Translations under genes and position numbers: made by a program
Notes under the pieces: generated by a model
What the model saw: the letters and a program-made list of their open reading frames with translations, nothing else
Database searches by the model: none
What the model was told of the DNA's origin: nothing
DNA from: Bacteroides sp.
Lineage (GTDB): Bacteria > Bacteroidota > Bacteroidia > Bacteroidales > Muribaculaceae
Direction: 5' to 3'
DNA length: 64,000 nucleotides
Assembly: GCA_014802325.1 (NCBI GenBank)
Contig: JAAVCK010000010.1
Coordinates: 1-64,000 of the forward strand
Shown here: positions 19,186-26,987 of the stretch, in pieces
How the letters are laid out: every line of letters begins with the position of its first letter
Numbering within the stretch: position 1 is the stretch's first letter

Positions 19186-21240
19186 ATGAAATCGTTACAC
19201 ATTGCATTAGCTTTTGCAGCCACTGCCGTGGCCGCTGCCACCGGCTGCCAGGGCTCTCGCTCAGAACACATGAAAAGTCTTAATCAGGCCTACTTCGACT
19301 CTACAGTCACCGCCGGCGAGGACTTCTACACCTTCGTCAATTCCGGTTGGGAAAAGGCTCACCCCCTCACCGCAGAGCATGCCCGTTACGGCCAGTTCAA
19401 TATCCTCAACGACTCGTCTGAAGAGCGCGTGAAGCAGCTCATACTCCACCTTGGCGACCGCAATCCCCAGCCCGGTACCGTAGACCACAAGGTGTGGACC
19501 ATCTATAGCCAGGCCATGGACTCGGCTCGCCGCAATGCCGAAGGAGCTGCTCCTATTCAGGCTCATCTGCAGAAGATCGAAAATACTCCTCACGAGGAGA
19601 TGACCGACCTTTTCCTGTGGATGCACGGCAACTATGCAAGCCCCCTCTTCGGCGCTGGCCCGATGGAAAATCTTGCCAACTCCAATGAGTATGCCATGTA
19701 TGTATCGGGTGGTAGCCTCGGACTGGGCGACCGCGATTATTATCTCGAAAACGACGCCCGCAACACCGAAGTGCGCGAGGCTTACAAGAAACTCATCGTG
19801 ACCCAGATGATGAATGCCGGTCTTGCCGAGGCCGACGCTCGCCGCATCATGGACAATGTGATGAAGATCGAGACCTCGATAGCCGAATCGGCTCTTACCC
19901 GCGAGGAGTCGCGCAACATCGTGGCTATGAACAACCCCCGCTCGTTTGCTGAGCTCAAGGCTGAGTATCCCAACATCCCCTGGGATCGCTTCTTCATCGA
20001 GACGATGGGTATCGAGTCGCCCGACACCGTGATCATCACCGAGCTCAAGGGTCTTGATAAGTCCAACAAACTTTTCGCCCAGCTCAACGACCGCGAACTC
20101 AAGGACTACTATCTCTGGAAATATGTGGCTCAGGCAGCTCCCACTCTCTCCGACGCATTTACCGACGCATCGTTTGAATTCAACAAGGTGATGAGCGGAG
20201 TGCAGGAGCAGCGTCCCCGCTGGAAGCGCGCTCTCGGAGCCACCGAAAGCGCTCTCGGCGAAGCTGTAGGTCAGCTCTACGTGGAGAAATATTTCCCTGA
20301 ATCGTCCAAGCAATACATGCTCGGCCTGGTAGAGAATCTCCGCGAGGCTCTGGGCGAGCACATCAACAACCTCGAATGGATGACCGACTCCACAAAAGCT
20401 CAGGCGCTCAAGAAGCTCAACTCTTTCACCGTGAAGATCGGCTACCCCGACAAGAGGAAAGACTACTCAAGCATGGAGATCGACCCGGCCCTCAGCTATT
20501 ACGAGAATATGCACAATGTGTCGATGTGGCATCAGCGTGACCTCTACTCGAAGTGGGGCAAGCCCGTCGACAAGAGCGAATGGGGCATGACTCCGCAGAC
20601 CGTCAACGCTTACTACAACCCTATGGCCAACGAAATCGTGTTCCCCGCCGCCATCCTTCAGGCTCCCTTCTTTGATCCCGAAGCAAGCGACGCCGAAAAC
20701 TACGGTGGTATCGGCGTGGTGATCGGCCACGAGATGACCCACGGATTTGACGACCAGGGTCGCAACTTCGACGCTCAGGGCAACATGACCGACTGGTGGA
20801 CCGCCGAAGACGCCAAGGCATTTGAGGAAAAGACAAAAGGTCTGATAGCTCAGTTTGATGAGGTGGAAGTACTTCCCGGACTTCACGCCAACGGTCAGTA
20901 TACTCTCGGCGAAAATATCGCTGACCAGGGTGGTCTGCGCGTAGCAATGACCGCATTCCTCAACTCACAGAAAAAGAAAGGCGTAGACGTGAACTCCGAA
21001 GAAGCCAAAATCGACGGCTACACTCCCGCTCAGGTATTCTACATGAACTATGCCAACCTGTGGGCCAACAATATCCGCGAGGCTGAGATACGCTCGCTCA
21101 CCACGGGCGACGTTCACTCACTCGGCCGCAACCGCGTCAACGTTACCCTGCGTAACCTCGCTCCCTTCTTCGAGGCATTCTCCATCAAGGAAGGCGACCC
21201 CATGTATCGTCCCGAAGCAGAGCGCGTGGTGATCTGGTAA
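19186..21240 (+). CDS. M13 (neprilysin/PepO-type) zinc metallopeptidase, lipoprotein
   Basis: 684 aa. The N-terminal signal ends in a lipobox-like AATGC, so the enzyme is probably lipid-anchored in the envelope. Zinc-site motifs of M13 are present: VVIGHEMTHGFDDQGRNFD (HExxH) and ENIADQGGLRVA (third ligand Glu in ExxAD). The C-terminus has GRNRVNVTLRNLAPFFEAF and ends with the family-typical short tail. It would cleave oligopeptides outside the cytoplasm. Monocistronic with its own terminator. Confidence 0.93.
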   Translation: MKSLHIALAFAATAVAAATGCQGSRSEHMKSLNQAYFDSTVTAGEDFYTFVNSGWEKAHPLTAEHARYGQFNILNDSSEERVKQLILHLGDRNPQPGTVDHKVWTIYSQAMDSARRNAEGAAPIQAHLQKIENTPHEEMTDLFLWMHGNYASPLFGAGPMENLANSNEYAMYVSGGSLGLGDRDYYLENDARNTEVREAYKKLIVTQMMNAGLAEADARRIMDNVMKIETSIAESALTREESRNIVAMNNPRSFAELKAEYPNIPWDRFFIETMGIESPDTVIITELKGLDKSNKLFAQLNDRELKDYYLWKYVAQAAPTLSDAFTDASFEFNKVMSGVQEQRPRWKRALGATESALGEAVGQLYVEKYFPESSKQYMLGLVENLREALGEHINNLEWMTDSTKAQALKKLNSFTVKIGYPDKRKDYSSMEIDPALSYYENMHNVSMWHQRDLYSKWGKPVDKSEWGMTPQTVNAYYNPMANEIVFPAAILQAPFFDPEASDAENYGGIGVVIGHEMTHGFDDQGRNFDAQGNMTDWWTAEDAKAFEEKTKGLIAQFDEVEVLPGLHANGQYTLGENIADQGGLRVAMTAFLNSQKKKGVDVNSEEAKIDGYTPAQVFYMNYANLWANNIREAEIRSLTTGDVHSLGRNRVNVTLRNLAPFFEAFSIKEGDPMYRPEAERVVIW

Positions 21241-21263
21241 CCCATCTCCACCCCTACTCCATC

Positions 21264-21294
21264 ATCCCGGCCCCCAAAAGGCCGGGATTTTTTT
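21264..21294 (+). terminator. M13 gene terminator
   Basis: CCCGGCC and GGCCGGG around CCCAAAA, followed by ATTTTTTTATTT. Confidence 0.92.
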
Positions 21295-21341
21295 ATTTAT
21301 ATCTAAATTGCATTTAGCCCCTCACATATAACATTTTTTTG

Positions 21342-21349
21342 TATCTTTG
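21342..21349 (+). promoter_or_regulatory. -7 box upstream of the structured RNA
   Basis: TATCTTTG matches TAnnTTTG. No clear -33. It is the only such box between the M13 terminator and the TerB-like gene. Confidence 0.5.
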
Positions 21350-21398
21350 CACAGAATCACTAACATCATAGAGTTGATATACACGTGATTTCGTACAT

Positions 21399-21632
21399 AC
21401 AAAGGTGTTATTGAAATTTTATCTTCTAAAGTCAAACTTCGCAACTTTGATAATCAGCATGAAGATGAGATTGGCAATAGCACCTGCATCGGTAGCTTAT
21501 ATTCTGTCGAGATCGACAGTTACATAGCTATATCGGTGTGGGGCTATTGTTTTATCCATGCTGATAGGTAATGCGAAGACCTGACTTTAGGATAGAACAA
21601 GATACATTCCTCACACCTTTTATTTTTTTACC
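21399..21632 (+). ncRNA. Rod-shaped structured RNA candidate (6S-like or operon leader)
   Basis: Nested complementary segments span the region in strict order: AAAGGTGT/ACACCTTT, CTAAAGTC/GACTTTAG, CTTCGCA/TGCGAAG, ATCAGCATG/CATGCTGAT, CAATAGC/GCTATTG and an apical CTGTCG/CGACAG around AGAT. Each pair is perfect and the unpaired stretches between them form internal loops. The outermost stem is followed directly by TATTTTTTTACC, a U-tract, which sets the strand as plus. The long hairpin interrupted by bulges recalls 6S RNA, whose Bacteroidota forms are divergent. An alternative is a leader or attenuator of the TerB-like operon 54 bp downstream. Confidence 0.65.
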
Positions 21633-21685
21633 TTAATTATCATCGCGTCTTTTCAAAGGAGGATAAGAGAAGAGCAAAAAACACT

Positions 21686-22081
21686 ATGGATGCTTTAGTA
21701 AAATCTCAATTCCTCTGCCTTTATTGCATGGTGCTGGCCGACGGCATTATCGATGCCCTCGAGATGGAGAAACTTTACAAGATCGGAACGGAGCAATACG
21801 GCTTGACGCAGGCCGAAATAACTTCCGCGGTCAGAGATGCCGGTACTTCATTTATCTTTCCCGAATCTCTGCCTGACAAAATTCGTCTGCTGATGAATCT
21901 TGCTGAAATCGCTCTTGCCGACAATGACATCGACCCTACCGAAAAAGCCCTGATGAGAAAATATATCATCAAGATGGGTTTCCTCGAATCTAATGCCGAC
22001 GGAATTTCAGATTTCATTTTCTCGGCAGTACAAAATCACCTAACACTCGAACAAGTACTTAACTCCATTTCCAATAATTAA
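21686..22081 (+). CDS. TerB-like protein
   Basis: 131 aa, all-helical, no signal peptide. The pattern YCMVLADGIIDALEMEKLYKI near the N-terminus and LAEIALADNDIDPTEKALMRKYI in the second half match the paired acidic D-G/N-x-I-D motifs of TerB/DjlA-type domains, which bind metal in known members. First gene of an AT-rich three-gene operon; the next gene starts 2 bp after its stop. A strong AAAGGAGG lies 23 nt before the ATG, too far for a normal Shine-Dalgarno. Base use is clearly more AT-rich than rpsA or the M13 gene, suggesting acquisition by transfer. Confidence 0.7.
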   Translation: MDALVKSQFLCLYCMVLADGIIDALEMEKLYKIGTEQYGLTQAEITSAVRDAGTSFIFPESLPDKIRLLMNLAEIALADNDIDPTEKALMRKYIIKMGFLESNADGISDFIFSAVQNHLTLEQVLNSISNN

Positions 22082-22083
22082 TT

Positions 22084-23301
22084 ATGGCATTTACAAATCC
22101 ATTAGCACAACTTTTTGCTACAGCCCCATCATCCACTCCAAAACCGCAACAAAATCAAGATTCAATACTTGAAGGTGAAACCTATGTGTTTTACGGCACA
22201 CGCCTGTGCGGTAAAGTAACAGCAAGTCATCAGGCATTGAGCGCTTATCTCCCGAAGATATACAATCAAGAAAAACAGCGTCAATATGACAATGCCGATC
22301 TACAGGAGGAATTGAGCAACAAACGCAGACATGAAATTGAATCCTTCAAGCAAAAGAATGCCCGTGAAAACACTAATATCGAACAACTTGAAAATGGTAT
22401 TGATGAAGATAAACGCAAAATTCAGGAAGCACGTGAAGAACTTGAAAGCGCAAAAGCAAAAAACGGCGAGGTTAATAAAATGACAAAGGTTAAGATGGTA
22501 GTCGGCATAGCTATCCTCTCCATCCTTACCGTTTACCTCTTTATCTTTTACAGCTCAACTTTCTACTCTGCATTTTTCCGAACGTTCGACGATAATGTAA
22601 ATGTCGGGCAAGCAATGTTTTATGCAAATTCGATATATGCTTCTTATCAACAGGGCATTGGTCAATTGCTATTTATAATTTGCGCTCCAATTATTTTTAT
22701 GGGGCTCGGTTATACACTTCACTATTTCAGTGTGCAGGAATCTTGGACGAAATACCTGAAAATAACTTCAGTGATAGCGATTACCTTTGCTTTTGACTGT
22801 ATTCTTGCATACCTTATAGCGGAAAAAATTTACATTATAATTATAAGTTCAACACCCGGAGTTTTCCCTCCCTTTGGTCTGGATATTGCTATACATGATA
22901 TCAATGTATGGGCTGTAATTTTCTGCGGGTTCATCGTGTACGTTATATGGGGTATTGTTTTTGACATGACTATTACAGCTTACGGTGATTTAAGGTCTAA
23001 TGAAAAGGAAATAAAAATACTTAATTCAAGAATAGAATCACTCAACGGAGCTATTGCTGAGAAGAAAAATAATATCATCGACTGCAAAGGTCGGATTTCG
23101 GCTAATGATAATAAAATTGAGTCTTTGACGAAAGCATTAGCCTCTGCCAAGCTATTCAATCCTCATATAATCAAGATTGCGCTGAATGATTTCTTTGCAG
23201 GCTGGCTCACCATGATGAGCACATTGAATCGTACAAGTGAAGATCAAGAAGCAGCGAAAAAAGTATATAATGATGCGATTAATAACCTATTTACTGAATA
23301 A
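22084..23301 (+). CDS. Four-TM protein with two cytosolic coiled coils
   Basis: 405 aa. A low-complexity N-terminus (about 1-35) is followed by a long charged coiled coil (about 65-135, EKQRQYDNADLQEELSNKRR and onward), four hydrophobic segments between about 139 and 295 (e.g. MVVGIAILSILTVYLFIFY, LLFIICAPIIFMGLGYTL), and a second coiled coil (about 305-355) with a short helical tail. No known enzyme motif. It sits between a TerB-like protein and a vWA-like lipoprotein, so it may be the membrane scaffold joining the two. Family not recognised. Confidence 0.65.
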   Translation: MAFTNPLAQLFATAPSSTPKPQQNQDSILEGETYVFYGTRLCGKVTASHQALSAYLPKIYNQEKQRQYDNADLQEELSNKRRHEIESFKQKNARENTNIEQLENGIDEDKRKIQEAREELESAKAKNGEVNKMTKVKMVVGIAILSILTVYLFIFYSSTFYSAFFRTFDDNVNVGQAMFYANSIYASYQQGIGQLLFIICAPIIFMGLGYTLHYFSVQESWTKYLKITSVIAITFAFDCILAYLIAEKIYIIIISSTPGVFPPFGLDIAIHDINVWAVIFCGFIVYVIWGIVFDMTITAYGDLRSNEKEIKILNSRIESLNGAIAEKKNNIIDCKGRISANDNKIESLTKALASAKLFNPHIIKIALNDFFAGWLTMMSTLNRTSEDQEAAKKVYNDAINNLFTE

Positions 23302-23305
23302 AAAA

Positions 23306-24181
23306 ATGAAACAAAGAAATCTAATTATTGCTTTAGCAGTGTTTATAACTTTTTTAATTGTATGTGTCGTCAGTTGTAATGGTTCAGGCAGTCAGACCGA
23401 CGGGTCAGGAACGGATAGCGTCACTGCGACACCACATAAAATAAATAAGGACAACTTACCCATCAATCTTTCGGTATTTATCGACCTTTCCGATCGCATT
23501 GTGCGACCCAATCCGACTCAAGTTGAACTTGACACAGCCATTGTAAACCAACTTATCGACTTTTTTATTGAAAATTCATTTAAAGGTGGGAAACTCCTTT
23601 CATGCAAAAACAAATTTAATGTATTTTTTTATCCGGCACCAACAGATGCATCTGTAACAACTCTTGCCAAGGGTCTGAATATAGACCTGTCCATACTGCA
23701 AGGAGCGCAGAAGAAAGAGAGGCTCGCTGAGATGAAAGAAACATTTGACAATAATCTTGCCCAGATATATTCATTAGCCATAAAAAATAAGAAATTTATA
23801 GGATGTGATATATGGGGATTCTTTACTGACAAAAAAGTTGATAATCTATGTATGTCGCCCGGCTACCGTAACATTTTGGTGATACTGACTGACGGTTACT
23901 TATACCACATACATAATAAAAAGCAGGATGGCAATGCCTATTCTTACTTAAACCCGCAGAACCTTATGCTTCCCGGAACTTCCTTGATAGTAGGTCGTGA
24001 CGGGCTTGAGGATCTCGAGGTTTTAATGCTCGAAGTCAATCCCTCGCAAATCAGTCAGCTTCACACAATGGAAGATATAATTGAAACTTGGATGAAAGGC
24101 ATGGGTGTTGAGCACTATATGGTAGCAGGGACTGATCTTCCTTCTAACACCGCAAAGTATATCTCGAATTTCTTGAAATAG
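23306..24181 (+). CDS. vWA-like lipoprotein
   Basis: 291 aa from the ATG at 23306 (MKQRNLIIAL), 4 bp after the preceding stop; the track extension overlaps that gene. The signal ends in VVSC, a lipobox. The mature part has NLSVFIDLSDRIV (a D-x-S-type MIDAS start) and, about 130 residues later, NILVILTDGYLYHI, matching the T-D-G strand of vWA domains. A metal-dependent adhesion or scaffold role in the periplasm is inferred. Some MIDAS residues are non-standard (DLSDR rather than DxSxS). Confidence 0.65.
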   Translation: MKQRNLIIALAVFITFLIVCVVSCNGSGSQTDGSGTDSVTATPHKINKDNLPINLSVFIDLSDRIVRPNPTQVELDTAIVNQLIDFFIENSFKGGKLLSCKNKFNVFFYPAPTDASVTTLAKGLNIDLSILQGAQKKERLAEMKETFDNNLAQIYSLAIKNKKFIGCDIWGFFTDKKVDNLCMSPGYRNILVILTDGYLYHIHNKKQDGNAYSYLNPQNLMLPGTSLIVGRDGLEDLEVLMLEVNPSQISQLHTMEDIIETWMKGMGVEHYMVAGTDLPSNTAKYISNFLK

Positions 24182-24202
24182 CTTCGGACTCAACCCACGT
24201 CA

Positions 24203-24497
24203 AGAGGCCGTGTCAAAATTAATACGAATACCCCAGGGCATTGACTTCTTCGTAACTGGCGCCGCCGCAAAGCTACGGCGGCGCCGGCTATAGGCCTGTT
24301 AACTTTGGCGTCCGCAAGGGCGCCGATTGCATAACTTGTTGATTCGCTTTTTTATTCGGAGCCTATCGGGCGCCTATTGGATATCTAACTTTTACCCGGG
24401 GCGCCTCCGGATCGCTACGGCGACCTGGGCTTCAATTAAATCAGCGTCCTGTGGACGCTTGTACTGGTTATGAAATAGTCTATTTAGACGCAGCTTC
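24203..24497. mobile_element. MITE-like repeat, copy A (degenerate)
   Basis: About 295 bp, clearly related along its length to 28392-28706. Shared blocks include the GGGCATTGA near the left end, GGCGCCG hairpin arms, TGTTAACTTTGGCGTCCG, TCGGGCGCC and a right end TAGTCTATTTAGACGCAGC. The terminal repeats GAGGCCGTGTCAAAAT and the complement of the right end GAAGCTGCGTCTAAAT are diverged. No ORF inside. It closes the AT-rich TerB island. Confidence 0.75.
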
Positions 24498-24578
24498 CTG
24501 AATTTTAACCAACGGTTTTTTGTTAAAAGTCTGACGGATTTTTCGGCGATAGGGCGGGGAGATTGTGAATTTTTTGAT

Positions 24579-24586
24579 TATCTTTG
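24579..24586 (+). promoter_or_regulatory. -7 box of the GH31 gene
   Basis: TATCTTTG 37 bp before the ATG; no standard -33 seen. Confidence 0.5.
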
Positions 24587-24623
24587 CGGAAGCGTAAAAA
24601 GTTTTATCATTTTTTCTTCCGAT

Positions 24624-26987
24624 ATGAAAATCTCATACTCTATGATGGCTCTGGCGGCTCTGCTTTGGGGTGCCGGTCAAGCCGCGGCTTATACTGTGAC
24701 TACTCCTGCCGGTCAGACGGTGGACGTAACGTTTATGAACGATAACATACTGCGTGTGACTTCGCTGCATGCGGGTCAGGCAGCGGCTGCTCCGACTGCG
24801 GCCGTGATGAAGCCTGAAGCGGTGGACGTCACTGTGACCGATGGTCCGATAGTGACGCTGACCTCGCCGTCGGGGCTATCGGCTACGGTAGACAAATCGA
24901 GCGGTGCGGTAAATATATCAAGCGGCGGCGCGCGGATGGTCTACGACGCGGGAGTGCGCACCACCGATGCCGACGGCCATCAGTCGCTATCGCTGGCTTA
25001 TCTTGGCAAAGGCACATTCTACGGTGCCGGAGAGCGAGGCCACAGTGTGAACCTCGAAGGCGACACGCTCGTGATGTATAACAGGCAGAACTACGGCTAC
25101 ACCGCCGGCGATCCGCGCATCTCGCAGATGAACATCACCATGCCGCTGTTTGTGGCCAAGGCGGGATATGCCATAGTGTTTGACGACTACGCAGCCGCCA
25201 CCATGGTAATGGGTAATCCTATAGTCTATACCACCGAGTCAAGCGAACCGGTGACCTATTATTACATCGACGGCCACGGCAGTCTGCCCGAAGTGTCGCA
25301 TCTGCTCACCGAACTTGTGGGTCGCCAGGACCTCCCGCCGCTGTGGGCGCTGGGCTACATCACTTCAAAATACGGCTATCATGACCGCCGCGAGACCACG
25401 GGTGTGATCGACACCCTGCGCCGCGAGGGCTATCCGGTCGACGGTGTGGTGCTTGATCTCTATTGGTATGGCAAGGAGCAGGATATGGGTCGTCTTGACT
25501 GGGATCCGGTGCAGTGGCCCGACCATAGCCGCATGCTCGCCGACCTTAAGAAGCGTGGCGTGAATACCGTGGCGATATCGCAGCCCTACGTGCTTCGCAA
25601 CGGTCGCGGAGTGGATAATTACAATGAACTGCGCGATGGCGGCATGCTGCTCCGCGACACCACCGGCGCTCCGCAGGAGGTGAAGATATGGGTAGGCGAA
25701 GGCGGAATGCTCGACGTATCTAATCCCGACACACGAGCATGGCTACGCGACCGTTACCGCCGTCTGACCGACGAGGGTATCACCGGATGGTGGGGTGACC
25801 TGGGCGAGCCCGAGGTGCATCCCGAGACGGGCGTGCACCACAACGGTCTGCCCACACGGCTCTATCACAATCTCTACGGTAACGACTGGAGTGCGATCAT
25901 TTACGATCTTTTCGCCGAGGAATATCCTGACACCCGACTGATGACGATGATGCGCGGCGGCACTACGGGTCTGCAACGCTACAGCGTGTTCCCGTGGTCG
26001 ACCGACGTGAGCCGCTCATGGGGAGGTCTGCAACCGCAGATAACGATAATGCTCAATTCCGGTCTGAGCGGCCTGGGCTACATGGGCCACGACGTAGGCG
26101 GATTTGCCATCGATCCCGCGGCACCTTACGATCCCGAACTTTATGTGCGCTGGCTCCAGCTCGGCACATTCTCGCCCATACTCCGCACTCACGCTCAGGC
26201 CACGGCCGAGCCTTATCACTATCCTCAGCAGCGCGACATCATACGTCCGCTCATACTGGAGCGCTACCGCTGGCTACCCTACAACTACACGCTTGCCTAC
26301 CGTAACTCGCTCTTCGGCGAACCACTGGTGCAACCCATAGGCTACTACGACGATGAGTCGCTGCCGGCATCGCCCGACGTGACTGACCAATACCTCTGGG
26401 GCCGCGACGTGATGATAGCGCCCGTGCTCACTCAGGGGGCCACTTCGCGCGAGGTAGTCTTCCCGCAGGGCAAGTGGGTCGACATGCGCAGTCCCGCTGC
26501 TGTATATGCAGGAGGCACCACCGCCACTGTCGACGCGCCGCTCGAAGTGCTTCCGATGTTTGCCCGCGCCGGTGCTATAATCCCGATGGCCGACTACAAG
26601 ATGGACAACACCACGCAGTACCGCACCGACACATATACCCTCAACGTGTATCCTGTAGAAGGCGAGAGCGGCAGCTACACGCTCTATGAAGACGATCTGA
26701 CCTCGCGCTCAGCCATCGCCGCGGGCCGATATGCCGCAGTGGATATGACCGACTCCATGACCGACGGCAAAGTCACATTCACGGCAAAGTTCTCAGGCTC
26801 CTACCCCGGCCTTAAGCCGGTGAAAAAACTCACTGTGAAGTTTCACGGCATAGACACAGCTCCGGCAGCTGTGACTGTCGACGGCAAGACACTTCGCGGA
26901 AAAGCAGTGAAATACACCCCCGAAGATGGTATTCTTACCATTACTACCGACTGGAATATCTCAAATGGACTAAAAATTGAATTTTGA
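24624..26987 (+). CDS. Glycoside hydrolase family 31 (alpha-glucosidase/xylosidase type)
   Basis: 787 aa with a signal peptide (cut near AQAAA or AAAYT), so exported to the periplasm or surface. N-terminal beta-sandwich, then a TIM barrel from about residue 235 (LPPLWALGYITSKYGYHDR). The likely nucleophile is in GWWGDLGEPEV and the acid/base Asp in FPWSTDVSRSWGG. After the barrel come two beta domains (VFPQGKWVDM, then a DUF5110-like C-terminus). Substrate is not deducible: GH31 covers alpha-glucosides, xylosides and transglycosylation. It is not beside SusC/D genes. Confidence 0.92.
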   Translation: MKISYSMMALAALLWGAGQAAAYTVTTPAGQTVDVTFMNDNILRVTSLHAGQAAAAPTAAVMKPEAVDVTVTDGPIVTLTSPSGLSATVDKSSGAVNISSGGARMVYDAGVRTTDADGHQSLSLAYLGKGTFYGAGERGHSVNLEGDTLVMYNRQNYGYTAGDPRISQMNITMPLFVAKAGYAIVFDDYAAATMVMGNPIVYTTESSEPVTYYYIDGHGSLPEVSHLLTELVGRQDLPPLWALGYITSKYGYHDRRETTGVIDTLRREGYPVDGVVLDLYWYGKEQDMGRLDWDPVQWPDHSRMLADLKKRGVNTVAISQPYVLRNGRGVDNYNELRDGGMLLRDTTGAPQEVKIWVGEGGMLDVSNPDTRAWLRDRYRRLTDEGITGWWGDLGEPEVHPETGVHHNGLPTRLYHNLYGNDWSAIIYDLFAEEYPDTRLMTMMRGGTTGLQRYSVFPWSTDVSRSWGGLQPQITIMLNSGLSGLGYMGHDVGGFAIDPAAPYDPELYVRWLQLGTFSPILRTHAQATAEPYHYPQQRDIIRPLILERYRWLPYNYTLAYRNSLFGEPLVQPIGYYDDESLPASPDVTDQYLWGRDVMIAPVLTQGATSREVVFPQGKWVDMRSPAAVYAGGTTATVDAPLEVLPMFARAGAIIPMADYKMDNTTQYRTDTYTLNVYPVEGESGSYTLYEDDLTSRSAIAAGRYAAVDMTDSMTDGKVTFTAKFSGSYPGLKPVKKLTVKFHGIDTAPAAVTVDGKTLRGKAVKYTPEDGILTITTDWNISNGLKIEF

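Follow-up and report, generated by a model that had tools for sequence, protein, structure and literature searches.

A putative cis-acting leader RNA with joined hairpin loops before diverse accessory operons of Bacteroidales

The window analysed here is a stretch of 64,000 nucleotides (nt) of Bacteroides sp. DNA (contig JAAVCK010000010.1, positions 1 to 64,000; order Bacteroidales, family Muribaculaceae). Past an M13 peptidase gene, the window carries a palindromic element of 234 nt (21399-21632), which is followed by an operon that begins with the gene of a TerB-domain protein (Table 1). We retrieved at least 209 distinct copies of this element, the comparison of which points to a structure maintained at the RNA level, a leader position with fixed spacing, a promoter of its own and a diverse set of unrelated downstream genes. 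We consider it likely that the element is a structured leader RNA acting in cis, a member of a class common to many Bacteroidales accessory operons, and that it works as a switch, which probably controls how the downstream accessory genes are turned on.

A preliminary description of the element had recognised six complementary segments in exact mirrored order with a U-tract at the end, and had taken this pattern as very unlikely by chance and as the mark of a structured RNA. These observations are borne out. All six arms are located within 21401-21620, a T-tract does follow, and the minimum free energy (MFE) fold of the 234-nt stretch is a long rod of −88.8 kcal/mol, as against a mean of −47.4 (standard deviation 4.1) for 200 shuffled sequences, none of which was as good (z −10.0). 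The opposite strand also folds strongly, although less so than the forward strand (z −8.9), because the element is palindromic. The same segments display a second, non-nested complementarity (21404-21413/21475-21484, 21535-21543/21609-21617, 21420-21426/21461-21467, 21547-21556/21591-21600). As at least the last two of these four helices are backed by comparative data, the nested rod is not the whole structure.

Covariation was counted as changes on both sides of a pair in 113 non-redundant copies, uncorrected for their relatedness, and compared with the maximum in 200 shuffles. The middle helices of the rod, M1, M2 and M3, displayed 267, 99 and 264 such changes (at most 101, 37 and 114 in the shuffles), and the apical hairpin displayed 72 (at most 50). 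The rod pairing TATCTT/AAGATA was unsupported, with a single both-side change (at most four in the shuffles) and 39 C-A mismatches at one pair, whereas the non-nested helices B (TATCTTC/GAAGAT, 98.5% paired) and D (TTGTTTTATC/GATAAAACAA) displayed 14 and 58 changes (at most 5 and 25). Each half of the core is therefore a hairpin, and the middle helices M1-M3 join the two loops. RNAalifold returned the rod from an alignment of 24 copies (A1), with 27 of 60 pairs covarying; on the same alignment, the combined structure passed all five measures, with 0 of 500 shuffles doing so and far above slid controls. A set of 59 copies from other families confirmed M1-M3 and D (nine both-side changes in D, at most six in the shuffles), segment a, helix B and their partners being uninformative in this set because the search pattern had partly fixed them. 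Overall, compensatory change among homologues is strong.

The earlier picture of six nested perfect stems matches the thermodynamic fold. Of these stems, the three in the middle covary strongly, and the outer and inner ones are nearly invariant and able to pair in two ways. The four invariant segments concerned, a, b, c and d, are compatible with a:d and b:c, as in the rod, and also with a:b and c:d. In the window's family, a:b was 98.9% paired (five both-side changes against at most two in 200 shuffles) and b:c had 14 changes against 10 and 14 against 6. The c:d pairing, 99% paired, had five changes against at most two in other families, where b:c had 15 against 9. Such weak covariation of a:b, b:c and c:d may be the trace expected from a partner-swapping junction. 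The free fold of the core with the downstream hairpin H2 reached −96.0 and the two-hairpin fold −80.7, the latter computed without loop-loop helices, which the folding program cannot add, so that the two states are not rankable by energy here. The isolated 5′ half folded as a:b in 128 of 129 copies.

The part conserved in homologues corresponds to 21401-21621 of the window, but the unit is larger than first described. With the flanks aligned, its order is promoter, 5′ hairpin (P0), core, T-tract, 3′ hairpin (H2) and start codon. In 104 of 112 copies, the core is preceded by a −7 element of the form TAnn-TT[T/C]G, the end of which mostly lies 39-84 nt 5′ of the core; a GCYCC upstream box occurs mainly in the window's family (53 of 97 copies, 1 of 65 elsewhere). 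A P0-type hairpin with an AGNG-type loop is present in 119 of 188 promoter-matched copies, with 89 different inner stems. The core is followed within 14 nt by a run of at least four Ts in 140 of 145 copies. In 131 copies, the end of the core is recognisable and an open reading frame (ORF) of at least 45 amino acids (aa) follows, with only ATG counted as a start. The ATG of these ORFs lies a median of 59 nt 3′ of the core, and 48-71 nt from it in 118 copies. Similarly, a same-strand ORF of at least 80 aa begins 42-85 nt past the core in 56 of the 68 copies with enough flank; divergent ORFs upstream, counted over a wider range, were found in 17 of 68. The element thus lies in the 5′ region of a gene, on the same strand and at conserved spacing, and has a conserved secondary structure with compensatory changes, as is characteristic of cis-regulatory leaders, and its suggested role as the leader of the TerB-like operon is supported by homologues that precede start codons at a conserved distance. 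The accompanying statement that no other promoter precedes this operon was misleading: the leader itself carries a predicted Bacteroidetes-type promoter (TATCTTTG), located past the terminator of the M13 peptidase gene, which suggests that the leader begins its own transcription unit.

Table 1. Coordinates of the leader unit, the arms of its rod fold and the downstream genes in the window.
Feature	Position	Strand	Evidence or remarks
Promoter	upstream box TAGCCCC 21315-21321; −7 element TATCTTTG 21342-21349	+	sequence; predicted
5′ hairpin P0	21355-21390	+	AATCAC/GTGATT outer stem, ATCA/TGAT inner stem, loop TAGAGT
Segment a, GGTGTTATTG	21404-21413	+	partner b (10 bp) or d; almost invariant
Helix B 5′ strand, TATCTTC	21420-21426	+	partner 21461-21467
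Loop 1, 5′ sides of inter-hairpin helices M1, M2, M3	21427-21461	+	partners within 21557-21589
Helix B 3′ strand, GAAGATG	21461-21467	+	covariation
Segment b, CAATAGCACC	21475-21484	+	partner a or c
Apical hairpin, sequence-variable	21504-21519	+	covariation
Segment c, GGTGTGGGG	21535-21543	+	partner d (terminator-like stem) or b
Helix D 5′ strand, TTGTTTTATC	21547-21556	+	partner 21591-21600
Loop 2, 3′ sides of M3, M2, M1	21557-21589	+	covariation
Helix D 3′ strand, GATAGAACAA	21591-21600	+	covariation
Segment d, CATTCCTCACACC	21605-21617	+	CATTCCTC, partner H2 loop; CCTCACACC, partner c or a
T-tract, TTTTATTTTTTT	21618-21629	+	immediately 3′ of core
Hairpin H2, CTTTTC/GAGAAG, loop AAAGGAGGATAA	21649-21672	+	compensated stem changes; loop GAGGA pairs with TCCTC 21608-21612
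Rod arm 1, AAAGGTGT/ACACCTTT	21401-21408 with 21613-21620		
Rod arm 2, TAAAGTCA/TGACTTTA	21427-21434 with 21582-21589		
Rod arm 3, CTTCGC/GCGAAG	21437-21442 with 21573-21578		
Rod arm 4, ATCAGCATG/CATGCTGAT	21453-21461 with 21557-21565		
Rod arm 5, CAATAGC/GCTATTG	21475-21481 with 21543-21549		
Rod arm 6, CTGTCG/CGACAG	21504-21509 with 21514-21519		
TerB-domain protein, 131 aa, first gene past leader	21686-22081	+	Pfam TerB, E 7.8e-8
405-aa protein, coiled coil and membrane segments, second operon gene	22084-23301	+	ORF; coiled-coil matches below Pfam cut-off only
314-aa lipoprotein-like ORF, third gene	23237-24181	+	ORF; no Pfam match

The stem of H2 changes with compensation, and its loop (GGGGATTG-like) is complementary to CAATCCTC, which is located directly 5′ of ACACC. 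Over 109 copies, the H2-core pairing score averaged 15.2, compared with 12.7 (at most 13.3) in 200 permutations of the partners, and several individual swaps are clear (GACCGCC/GGCGGTT, CAACCTCC/GGAGGTTG, TGTTCTCC/GGAGAACG). The H2-side partner lies at medians of 31 nt past the core and 29 nt 5′ of the ATG. In the out-of-family alignment, the quality of which is poor at this site, no such pairing is evident. As H2 is located beyond the T-tract, the readthrough transcript would have a function for the H2-core structure. The H2 loop of the window copy (21655-21666) contains a Shine-Dalgarno-like GGAGG about 24 nt 5′ of the ATG, a kind of site that is seldom used in this phylum, and in many copies the sequence GGATGAG places an ATG inside the loop.

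When 61 relatives were searched at the DNA level, 20 genomes gave matches, all of the same family, with one to four matches each, a few of them short or partial. Applied to 397 genomes of the window's family, the sequence-only model R1, built from A1, found the element in 168 (25 of 30 genera) and not in the other 229; at most four candidates per genome were scored, which makes the copy numbers of this search lower bounds. Ten genomes scored more deeply carry 3 to about 9 places each (one of the places in G135 was counted on both strands). The window's own genome has one copy, and the copies elsewhere are diverged. In an order-wide draw of 295 genomes, 33 matched at E 0.001, many weakly or over part of the model, and the strong full-length matches fall in several other Bacteroidales families. 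Samples of the class and phylum gave no match outside Bacteroidales at E 1e-6, so that in the samples searched the element appears restricted to Bacteroidales. Phage records gave no match. The matches listed in a pattern scan of named genomes include Bacteroides cellulosilyticus, B. timonensis, B. propionicigenes, Phocaeicola sartorii, Mediterranea massiliensis, Caecibacteroides pullorum, Parabacteroides gordonii and metagenome-assembled genomes (MAGs) of Alistipes, among others; B. cellulosilyticus DSM 14838, P. sartorii and P. gordonii are among the cultured carriers. A MAG labelled Lachnospiraceae (L253) is also among those listed and is probably mislabelled or a mixed bin, because every other match is to Bacteroidales.

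The genes behind the leaders are very diverse. Their 173 proteins fall into 91 clusters (E 1e-6), 74 of which are singletons, and the largest clusters are BspA-type leucine-rich proteins (35), lipoproteins (19) and TerB-domain proteins (8). Pfam names among them comprise TerB, BspA-type LRR, trypsin, LytTR, DUF2971, DUF6642 and others, with scattered further matches from PADLOC and NCBIfam. By a rough N-terminal rule, 44 are lipoprotein-like, another signal or a membrane segment is seen in 64, and the remaining 65 lack all of these. On a tree of 113 leaders, the labels cluster by genus (61 changes, shuffled minimum 73) and by genome (31 against 34), and downstream gene clusters group slightly (28 against 30). 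Leaders have therefore been exchanged across gene contexts as well as across genera.

These features suggest a mechanism in which the core is the switch. During transcription the 5′ half would fold first (a:b). Formation of c:d, with the T-tract directly after it, would favour transcription termination, whereas re-pairing of the junction, or the capture of d by H2 after transcription has passed, would favour an expressed mRNA or set its translation. Some signal (a protein, a small molecule or a physical condition) would pick the state, and one input would thereby govern many unrelated accessory genes. Control is most likely exerted by attenuation at the T-tract, on translation through H2, or by both, and termination control of the TerB operon, as the preliminary description proposed, is possible. 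From the sequences we infer transcription of the element, a ligand and this mechanism with its component parts, namely a terminating T-tract, a switching junction, a link of H2 to translation and a common signal. Several observations weigh against such a switch: the controlled genes share no function that would hint at a signal; because of the long loop enclosed by the stem, the T-tract was not flagged in the terminator scan; and segments a-d are so nearly invariant that the two outer pairings, each with little covariation, are distinguished weakly.

The diversity of the accessory genes that share the leader would also agree with a constitutive expression module, in which the leader, instead of switching, would stabilise or insulate as a 5′ structure, or bring about processive antitermination or recruit ribosomes, and would thereby let freshly acquired genes be expressed wherever they have landed. 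Promoter, leader and start-codon spacing travel together, the leader phylogeny tracks the downstream genes weakly and the genus partly, copies are found on a plasmid and next to recombinase genes, and the H2 end is near the ribosome-binding region. We regard this explanation as unlikely, as the conserved T-tract directly 3′ of the core and the two mutually exclusive outer pairings fit a switch more naturally. The promoter and the terminator-like 3′ end could also belong to a core that acts mainly in trans, as a terminated small RNA of about 270 nt, the downstream gene being served by readthrough. This is quite improbable, given that H2, beyond the T-tract, covaries with the core, that the distance to the start codon is fixed and that one genome contains many divergent copies.

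Least probable is the divergent 6S RNA binding RNA polymerase that the preliminary description had considered, to which we attach practically no weight. The rod-like MFE fold and the length of about 200 nt do resemble 6S RNA (RF00013) and 6S-Flavo (RF01685), but 6S RNA stands alone, typically in one or two copies, and is near-universal in a lineage, whereas the element is a leader fixed to start codons, occurs in 1 to about 9 copies per genome with the patchy distribution described above, and has loop-loop helices and a pseudoknot into the downstream leader. RF00013 is unmatched in the window's genome, and Rfam scans of the window, run up to E 10, matched the element to neither family. Bacteroides has its own validated 6S RNA with product RNAs (PMC7366714). 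The palindrome, the several copies per genome and their varied neighbours recall a mobile inverted-repeat element akin to a miniature inverted-repeat transposable element (MITE), which is very improbable as well: the orientation and the distances to promoter and start codon are conserved, copies within a genome are strongly diverged instead of near-identical, and the compensatory changes act at the RNA level. This identity was rejected on copy number, orientation and spacing, target-site duplications not having been searched for. A conserved small ORF within the core (in some copies MRLAIAPASVAY...) was also rejected, as indels of one or two bases break its frame in the alignment.

Riboswitch- and attenuator-type leader RNAs can have wide regulons, as exemplified by the c-di-GMP riboswitches. 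The element, read as a switch, shares with them a structured 5′ leader with its own promoter, a conserved core, pseudoknots, a terminator-like 3′ end and several copies per genome before unrelated surface and accessory genes. Unlike them, it matches no Rfam family in sequence or structure and has no known ligand, its downstream genes giving no hint of one, and its core of about 215 nt, two hairpins joined loop to loop, is combined with a separate pairing to a hairpin past the T-tract. Rfam scans of the window up to E 10 gave only chance matches below gathering score, and further copies likewise matched nothing. JUMPstart/ops, LoaP and EAR are antitermination-type leaders common to diverse, horizontally acquired operons, an arrangement akin to that of the element, but these leaders are short or structurally unrelated to it. 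Other comparative predictions in Bacteroidetes include candidate structured RNAs of the human microbiome (PMC8040213) and the Bacteroidales-1 and Bacteroides-1 motifs (PMC2864571). The main-text passages of these two surveys contain nothing that corresponds to the element; their supplementary lists lie outside this comparison, and a partial overlap with them is possible. Supplementary motif lists of earlier surveys aside, the element is apparently undescribed: Rfam has no family that matches it, and the main texts searched contain no description of it.

With slightly less than even conviction, we suggest a new class of large regulatory RNA, in which a bistable junction and interlocked loops are combined with a pseudoknot that reaches across the terminator to a start-codon-adjacent hairpin, and which would be a transferable expression switch before almost any accessory gene of gut Bacteroidales, answering to one common signal. 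Few classes of cis-regulatory RNA are known in Bacteroidales, an order that is dominant in the mammalian gut. The element, with hundreds of copies, is present in cultured species, and its structure is testable by base-pair swaps. The surface, lipoprotein and accessory genes behind it would form one regulon under a common signal, and it offers a way of studying how a host gains control over genes that it has newly acquired.

The DNA upstream of the −7 element (21315-21330, TAGCCCCTCACATATA) is 81% complementary to the region of segment c (21531-21546), and the promoter-box consensus of the window's family, read by eye as ATAGCCCCACCAATAACA, has ATAGCCCCAC in common with the reverse complement of c. 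This likeness could reflect a shared protein site or an element misfolding readthrough RNA. An unannotated copy is located on a plasmid (L317:6001-6212, the 77-kb Phocaeicola massiliensis record OY725995.1). Another, on a contig from a viral collection (L316:10517-12060), lies just past tyrosine-recombinase-like and RadC-like ORFs and upstream of a J-domain-like ORF, a context that suggests carriage by an integrative element.

In the window, the site past the M13 peptidase gene (21240-24624) is hypervariable in the genus. Relatives other than G005 have unrelated DNA there, and their comparison yielded no clean empty site; G018, the peptidase of which is 96% identical, has other genes at this position. 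Of 27 genomes, G005 and that of the window are alone in having the leader and the TerB operon at this site. Within the operon, the start of the 314-aa ORF overlaps the second gene, and its true start is probably further in.
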